From: Actinocrinis puniceicyclus | Lineage (GTDB): Bacteria > Actinomycetota > Actinomycetes > Streptomycetales > Catenulisporaceae | Assembly (NCBI RefSeq): GCF_018283645.1 | Contig: NZ_JAGSXH010000014.1 | Coordinates: 1 to 64,000, forward strand | Direction: 5' to 3' | DNA: 64,000 bases | In this document: piece by piece, positions 8,930-10,338 of the stretch | Layout: each line of letters opens with the position of its first letter | Numbering within the stretch: the first letter of the stretch is position 1 | Made by a program: the position numbers and the translations under genes | Notes under the pieces: model-generated | What the model saw: only the letters and a program-made list of their open reading frames with translations | Database searches by the model: none | Told to the model about the DNA's origin: nothing

Positions 8930-9922
8930 TCAGCGCTCCGTGCCGGCGACGCAGGCCTGCTCGCGCGCGCGGCGCTGGCCGATCGTGAGGCTGAGGACGG
9001 TGGTCACGGCGAGGGTGAGCACGATGACGCCGAGCGAGAACGGAATCGACACCGTCGGCAGCGCGACCGGGCCGAGGTTTTCGACGCCGGAGCCGTGCAG
9101 TGCCTCCACGATCATCTTCAACCCGATGAAGCCGAGCACCACGGACAGGCCGACCGAGAGGTACACCAGCCGGTCGAGCAGGCCGCCGATCAGGAAGTAC
9201 AGCTGCCGCAGGCCGAGCAGGGCGAAGGCGTTGGCCGTGAACACGATGTACGGCTGCTGCGTGAGGCCGAACACGGCGGGGATCGAGTCGAGCGCGAAAA
9301 GCAGGTCCGCCGCGCCGACCGCCAGGATCACCAGCGCCATCGGGGTCAGCGCCCGGACGGCGCCGACGCGGGCCGTCAGCGCGGTGCCGTGGTAATCGTC
9401 GACGGTCGGGTGGATGCGCCGCACGAAACGCACCAGGCCGATCTCGCGGGCCGGGGCGGGCCCGGCGCCGTGCCCGGCGGCGAGCTTCACCGCGGTGTAC
9501 ACGAGGAACGCGCCGAAGAGGTAGAAGACCCAGTCGAAGGTGGACACGATCGCCGAGCCGAGCCCGATGAACACCCCACGCAGCCCGAGCGCGACGAGCA
9601 CGCCCACCAACAGCACCCGGTGCTGGTAGTCCCGGGGCACCCGGAAACGCGACAGTATGATCACGAAGACGAAGAGGTTGTCGACCGACAGGCTGTACTC
9701 GGTGATCCAGCCGGCGAAGAACTGGCCGCCGTAGGCCGTCCCGGCCAGGTGACTCAGGCCGAGGCCGAACGCCACCGCCAGTGCGGCCATGGCGGCCACC
9801 CACGTCCCGGCCTCCCGCAGGGAGACGGCGTGCGGCGCGCGGCCGACGACGAACAGATCGAGGGCGAGCACGGCCAACAGGCCGAGGACGGTCGCGGCCC
9901 AGACGAGTACGGGAACAGACAC
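8930..9922 (-). CDS. TerC-family integral membrane protein, probable Mn2+ exporter
   Basis: The 330-residue protein has about nine membrane segments with the TerC/Alx signatures EYSLSVDNLFVFVIIL near residue 80 and LLFALDSIPAVFG near residue 215, whose acidic residues lie in the membrane and are typical of the family. TerC/Alx/MeeF proteins have been linked to manganese export. The GTG at 9922 was chosen because GGAGGG lies eight bases upstream and membrane segment 1 then starts directly (SVPVLVWAATVLGL). The leader folds like a yybP-ykoY manganese riboswitch, and its 3' strand can also pair with this ribosome site, so Mn2+-controlled translation is strongly suggested. Confidence 0.92.
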   Translation of the reverse strand: MSVPVLVWAATVLGLLAVLALDLFVVGRAPHAVSLREAGTWVAAMAALAVAFGLGLSHLAGTAYGGQFFAGWITEYSLSVDNLFVFVIILSRFRVPRDYQHRVLLVGVLVALGLRGVFIGLGSAIVSTFDWVFYLFGAFLVYTAVKLAAGHGAGPAPAREIGLVRFVRRIHPTVDDYHGTALTARVGAVRALTPMALVILAVGAADLLFALDSIPAVFGLTQQPYIVFTANAFALLGLRQLYFLIGGLLDRLVYLSVGLSVVLGFIGLKMIVEALHGSGVENLGPVALPTVSIPFSLGVIVLTLAVTTVLSLTIGQRRAREQACVAGTER

Positions 9923-9930
9923 AGCGGCTT

Positions 9931-9970
9931 CCCTCCGGCGGACGTGAAAGTCATCAGTCATCGCCGGAGG
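9931..9970 (-). promoter_or_regulatory. Shine-Dalgarno-sequestering hairpin of the TerC gene
   Basis: CCTCCGGCG (9970-9962) and CGCCGGAGG (9940-9932) are perfect 9-base complements around a 21-base loop. The second arm contains the ribosome site GGAGGG that serves the GTG at 9922. The first arm is the 3' strand of the closing helix of the riboswitch candidate, so the two pairings are mutually exclusive. Confidence 0.75.
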
Positions 9971-10093
9971 TCTCTTCCGCCCCGCGGACCGCGGGACCGG
10001 TGGCACCGGGACGAGCACACGGACGCCGTTTCGACGCCGCGGTCTCGGCCGTGTTGACGGACGCCACCGCCGAAGTGGGGAGTACTCCCCTCC
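9966..10093 (-). ncRNA. yybP-ykoY (Mn2+) riboswitch candidate
   Basis: The minus-strand leader of the TerC gene contains the two hallmark strands of this class: GGAGGGGAGTA at the 5' side (starting 10093) and GAGACCTCC at the 3' side (ending 9966). GGAGG and CCTCC pair to give the closing helix P1. A GTCAACACGG block lies between them. The aptamer is followed by a translational switch with the Shine-Dalgarno sequence. Family membership rests on recognised motifs and on the regulated gene (TerC is a known target); a covariance search was not possible. The region 10094-10338 that completes the gap to the divergent signalling gene shows nothing further. Confidence 0.78.
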
Positions 10094-10338
10094 TTGCCCG
10101 CCCATTCTCGCACACCCGGCGCTCGGGCCGTTTTTTCATCCGCGCGAGTGAAGTAACCGGCCATTCGGCGTACGCACCGCAACCGGACGCCTACCCTTGG
10201 CTGCGGACTCGCGGCGGCGGACGGGAACAAGGACGCCGCGCCGCCGGTCACGACGTCTCGGCCCGTGCGGCGACTGCGCGGACCGGGACTCGACCGGGTG
10301 AGGATGAGCGAGGACGGGCGAGGGCAGGTGGGCGTGAC

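Follow-up and report, generated by a model that had tools for sequence, protein, structure and literature searches.

The window, a 64,000-nucleotide stretch of Actinocrinis puniceicyclus contig NZ_JAGSXH010000014.1, encodes on its minus strand a membrane protein of the TerC/Alx family (PF03741, 166 bits; TIGR03718 'R_switched_Alx', 348 bits with the cut-off at 246). TerC/Alx is one of the Mn2+-linked gene types, with MntP, GDT1 and P-type ATPase, that form the gene context of the yybP-ykoY riboswitch class. The start codon, GTG 9922, matches the start positions in relatives. An in-frame ATG at 9961 was set aside, as it has no Shine-Dalgarno (SD) sequence and is not where the relatives start. 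The TerC frame stays open through the whole leader (9923-10105), with ATG codons at 10105 and 9961; an automatic annotation pipeline may therefore predict a longer protein, which would conceal the riboswitch. No sigma-70 consensus promoter was found. A putative -10 element, GAGAAT, lies upstream of P1.1, and A/T is enriched at the matching positions upstream of relatives, which is a weak hint.

The leader has a GC content of 73%. Read on the minus strand, it contains GGAGGGGAGTA (10093-10083), GAGACCTCC (9974-9966), CCTCCGGCG (9970-9962) and CGCCGGAGG (9940-9932), followed by GTG 9922. GGAGG and CCTCC can form the five base pairs of helix P1.1, and CCTCCGGCG is the exact complement of CGCCGGAGG over 9 bp; the two pairings overlap at 9970-9966. 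The initial annotation had placed both pairings and a TerC gene downstream of them; its coordinates hold to the base, and the profile matches bear out the gene. The features are collected in Table 1.

Table 1. Features of the TerC leader and gene in the window
Feature	Position	Strand	Evidence
Predicted yybP-ykoY-type (alx-type) aptamer	9966..10093	-	R2 54.5 bits, E 1.2e-11; 22/28 pairs covary in relatives
P1.1 switch helix, 5' strand GGAGG	10089..10093	-	sequence; P1.1 covariation
P1.1 switch helix, 3' strand CCTCC, common to anti-SD	9966..9970	-	sequence; covariation
L1 5' strand GGAGTA (GGGGAGTA is the class hallmark)	10083..10088	-	invariant in members
L1 3' strand GAGA	9971..9974	-	alignment of members
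P1.2 5' strand CTCC; C10082 opposite A9975 is the single C-A mismatch	10079..10082	-	column pairs 15-136, 16-135 covary
P1.2 3' strand GGAA	9975..9978	-	covariation
P3.1 5' strand GGTGGC(GT)CC	10059..10068	-	own vs swapped duplex energy, relatives
P3.1 3' strand GG(T)GCCACC	9999..10007	-	own vs swapped duplex energy
L3 loop GTCAACACG, including A10055	10050..10058	-	motif in all aligned members
P4 hairpin CCCGCG-GTC-CGCGGG	9981..9995	-	computed fold; helix 5 of covariation alignment
Anti-SD strand CCTCCGGCG	9962..9970	-	complementarity, covariation, energy calculation
SD region CGCCGGAGG, 9 bases ahead of GTG 9922	9932..9940	-	sequence, covariation, energy calculation
TerC/Alx family membrane protein, 330 aa, start GTG 9922	8930..9922	-	profile matches; relatives' starts
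Putative -10 element GAGAAT; mRNA start would fall a few bases before P1.1	10104..10109	-	weak

Class membership and conservation of the leader

The same leader precedes TerC homologues in the family of the window and in Planosporangium, Dactylosporangium, Propionibacterium and Kushneria records, with the pattern GRAGGGGAGUAYUCC ... CGUCAUCACGG ... GAAGAGACCUCC ... CCGGAGG ... start. A covariance model built from 16 sequences, the window included (R1), finds the element in 183 of 297 genomes sampled from class Actinomycetes (74 of 115 genera), and 109 of the 127 fully read elements precede TerC. We found no convincing second element in the genome of the window itself, where the next match to the model R2 (below) scores 19.7 bits (E 0.9). 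Its GDT1 gene (L166, C386:80007-80558) has no riboswitch element, unlike GDT1 in several other actinobacteria. BLAST searches with the leader gave no match in phages and just one short match in plasmids, to a Nonomuraea record.

A second model, R2, was made from an alignment of 35 actinobacterial sequences (A2) that contains neither the family of the window nor E. coli. It matches the window with 54.5 bits (E 1.2e-11), and its top matches in the two E. coli loci are the alx (44.1 bits, E 5e-10) and mntP (25.3 bits, E 3e-5) riboswitches. The structure of A2 comprises P1.1, P1.2, P3.1, P3.2 and P4, with 90% of cells paired and changes on both sides in 22 of 28 consensus pairs. Its covariation score is 0.524; shuffling gives 0.222 +/- 0.012, and sliding the partners never gives more than 0.14. 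Over the relatives, the P3.1 strands form a duplex of -16.0 kcal/mol with their own partners versus -11.5 +/- 0.24 kcal/mol with swapped ones. P1.1 is made of G-C, A-U, C-G and U-A pairs in different relatives, and P1.2 of U-A, C-G and G-C pairs. The first P1.2 pair is a C-A mismatch in 17 of 109 TerC leaders, one of them that of the window (10082/9975), and U-A or C-G in most others; the mismatch could be a protonated, pH-sensitive C-A pair.

The core of the class is also present. In the window, the L1 strand GGGGAGUA lies opposite GAGACC and is closed by P1.1 and P1.2. This 5' strand is invariant in the 109 TerC-linked and 18 other members, although the search pattern itself accounts for part of the invariance of GGGGAGUA and of GAC; it does not account for the covariation elsewhere. 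The L3 loop of the window is of the UCA-ACAC type and reads TCAACACG with the invariant adenosine, and the motif is found in all aligned members. In crystal structures L3 reads UCA41AUUC (L. lactis) or ACA48UACU (X. oryzae), and the adenosine contacts Mn2+ through its N7 (PMC6754395). Aligned with these two loops, A10055 would correspond to the Mn2+-contacting A41 and A48 and is thus the predicted sensing residue. As side observations, GGGGAGTACTCCCC (10090-10077) is self-complementary, and in many TerC-type members the L1 and P1.2 5' strands could form a short hairpin of their own, a possible competitor of the aptamer.

The leader has no P2 helix, and so does not form the four-way junction (P1, P2, P3, P4) of the crystal structures; its P1.2-P3.1 linker is 10 nt, with a median of 4 nt in relatives. 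E. coli alx likewise has no P2, which makes P2 a trait of the crystallised members and not a requirement of the class. R2 places the P2 hairpin of mntP as an insertion that separates P1.2 from P3.1, so the actinobacterial members are the same class without P2, like alx. Missing P2 was rejected as a hallmark of the TerC type: GDT1-linked actinobacterial members are also without it, and at this place the Kushneria TerC leader carries an insertion with a hairpin fold.

The Rfam 15 model RF00080 (gathering cut-off 45 bits) does not match the leader even with E relaxed to 10 and the search confined to 196 bases, and a whole-genome search gives no match at the leader site either. The same library leaves the accepted E. 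coli K-12 alx and mntP riboswitches, our positive controls, below the gathering score, and alx is absent from the matches even at E 10. The miss at the leader is therefore uninformative, and RF00080 was likewise rejected as a test in relatives, the positive controls having failed. GDT1-linked actinobacterial members with textbook motifs reach 11-32 bits, also under the cut-off. The initial annotation had named the yybP-ykoY class and had counted the absence of an RF00080 match towards its refutation; that test is invalid as written, as it would equally discard E. coli alx and mntP, while the class itself is supported by the R2 homology to both and by the L1/L3 core. The finding exposes a blind spot of the current Rfam model. 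Judged by homology and covariation, the leader (10093-9932, minus strand) belongs to the yybP-ykoY riboswitches, to the same type as E. coli alx, and has an anti-SD expression platform.

The anti-Shine-Dalgarno platform and the proposed switch

The closing strand of the aptamer is also complementary to the SD, and the two pairings exclude each other. We measured, in 108 TerC leaders, the helix that the 3' strand of P1.1 can form with the bases ahead of the start codon: it has 7 bp or more in 82 of them, 8 or more in 57 and 9 or more in 34; a minority show no long anti-SD helix. In 98 distinct leaders the mean anti-SD/SD score is 20.2 versus 18.4 +/- 0.23 for swapped partners (reached in 0 of 1000 permutations), a figure that is a guide and not a probability, because related sequences are not independent and kinship inflates the counts. 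Other 11-mers of the same leaders have a mean score of 12.4, and 9% of them reach 7 bp. The SD zone tracks changes in P1.1: CCUUGUG occurs with CACAAGG (L154), CCUUCGGUAC with GUACCGAAGG (L133) and CCUCCAGC with GCUGGAGG (L122), and CUUUCGGCG with CGCCGGAGG (L012) is a wobble case. The covarying cases CCUCC/GGAGG, CUUUC/GGAGG (wobble), CCUUGUG/CACAAGG and CCUCCAGC/GCUGGAGG come from different clades. Both pairings recur upstream of TerC in relatives and are thus more than chance. The mutually exclusive pairings had been read from the window alone; the shared bases and the covarying anti-SD of the TerC leaders bear them out. At the level of sequence and covariation, this establishes them along with the fold and the class.

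We computed the ligand-free fold of the window leader with an energy model that takes no account of Mn2+, of tertiary docking or of co-transcriptional folding. In the optimum (-105.8 kcal/mol, versus -89.3 with P1.1 forced) the SD strand is paired and P1.1 stays open, with pair probabilities of 0.9 to 1 for eight of the nine anti-SD/SD pairs and about 0 for P1.1. In this model, the ligand-free leader sits in the SD-paired, OFF state. The gap of about 16 kcal/mol is large, so a switch must rely on co-transcriptional folding or on tertiary energy outside the model. In the class, Mn2+ stabilises P1.1 (PMC6754395); together with the OFF optimum, this suggests that Mn2+ raises translation.

We consider it very probable that the leader controls translation of the TerC/Alx protein as an alx-type Mn2+ riboswitch of the yybP-ykoY class. 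At low Mn2+, CCTCCGGCG would pair with CGCCGGAGG and hide the SD of GTG 9922. At high Mn2+, the ion would bind between L1 (GGGGAGTA/GAGACC) and L3 (TCA, A10055), dock the P1 and P3 legs and stabilise P1.1 (GGAGG/CCTCC); the formation of P1.1 would consume the anti-SD strand and release the ribosome site, giving the ON state. The class is our basis for inferring that Mn2+ is the ligand, which way the switch works and that TerC has a role in Mn2+ handling.

Control could instead act on transcription, by termination that is either intrinsic or Rho-dependent, and the SD pairing would then be incidental; class members in X. oryzae and L. lactis work through terminators. There is no intrinsic terminator-like site on the strand of the leader, and a T5 run precedes the start codon in 1 of 108 TerC leaders, which makes translation the likelier level of control; with the SD pairing covarying as well, we regard termination as unlikely, though Rho may still contribute. 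That the whole arrangement is chance complementarity without any regulatory RNA might be argued from the ease of forming long helices at such a GC content and from the negative RF00080 search. The covariation counts and the independent match of R2 to the window contradict it, as does the fact that the element is conserved in actinobacteria and in Kushneria and is homologous to E. coli alx, and we hold it to be extremely improbable.

A further alternative keeps the riboswitch and changes its signal: the leader would respond chiefly to alkaline pH and only secondarily to Mn2+, as E. coli alx was described earlier. E. coli alx reporters answer alkaline pH as well as Mn2+ (PMC9603457), the element is nearest to alx, and protonation of the P1.2 mismatch would offer a pH-sensitive site. 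However, the metal-site residues are conserved throughout the members, and in E. coli the two signals act together (PMC9603457). A mainly pH-driven leader is therefore very unlikely in our view, and Mn2+ control of translation is the preferred reading.

Known riboswitches, L3 types and wider meaning

The alx and mntP riboswitches of E. coli are reported to respond to Mn2+, alx in reporter assays (PMC9603457). Mn2+ riboswitches before alx are already established there, and the element in the window is ordinary in kind. It shares with E. coli alx (PRE) the L1 motif GGGGAGUA, the L3 UCAUUACG, GAGACC, P3.1 directly after P1.2 with no P2 hairpin, and the TerC/Alx gene downstream; R2 matches alx with 44 bits. 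It differs in that its leader is short and GC-rich with one simple 9-bp anti-SD helix, whereas the E. coli leader has further structures 3' of the aptamer. E. coli mntP and X. oryzae yebN have the same L1 motif, GAGACC, P1.1/P1.2/P3/P4 and invariant L3 adenosine, but also P2, an ACAUACU-type L3 and an MntP exporter gene. L. lactis yoaB (PDB 4Y1I) has a UCA41-type L3 and the same core, but a four-way junction with P2 and a transcription-terminator platform.

Among actinobacteria, GDT1-linked leaders (for example L088, L092 and L121) have the P2-less fold and an anti-SD strand of the same kind; they differ in a G-C first P1.2 pair, a GACAYACUG L3 and RF00080 scores of up to 32 bits. An RF00080 leader is listed ahead of terC (cg2157) in C. 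glutamicum, where its transcript was observed (PMC3890552). That leader, too, precedes an actinobacterial terC, but it was identified with an older Rfam model (49 bits). Our search of the open literature turned up no account of actinobacterial TerC leaders as a broad group.

In the actinobacterial set with Kushneria, the L3 type follows the gene: UCA precedes TerC (109 elements) and GACA precedes GDT1 (15 of 15). Another three elements of the UCA type stand before genes other than TerC, in two cases a P-type ATPase gene whose product has about 1500 residues. These two (L160:1-4860 and L161:580-5400; G225 C67 and G260 C19) come from a pair of genomes in one actinobacterial genus, and the ATPase, with E1-E2_ATPase and cation ATPase C-terminus domains, is a candidate Mn2+ pump. 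At L131:200-1200 a UCA-type element is followed by a frame for an unassigned protein (MSKLNRLFDLASKALDKG...), with no TerC found downstream. A gammaproteobacterial UCA-type element (L157:1440-1760) has an CCUUCGCC/GGCGAAGG platform, and the next gene encodes a small cysteine-rich (zinc-ribbon-like) protein. That L3 type tracks the gene in all bacteria is unsupported, since this element precedes a non-TerC gene.

The UCA and GACA types are probably two old lineages. It is possible, though we hold this tentatively and think it rather doubtful, that actinobacteria have a large P2-less, three-way-junction branch of the class, mostly unseen by Rfam, in which UCA/TerC and GACA/GDT1 elements perhaps respond at different Mn2+ thresholds, for metalation and efflux. 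With L3 types matched to TerC and GDT1, it can be tested directly whether members of a single riboswitch class are set to two different thresholds. The finding predicts Mn2+ control of TerC across much of class Actinomycetes, where Rfam 15 annotation finds nothing.
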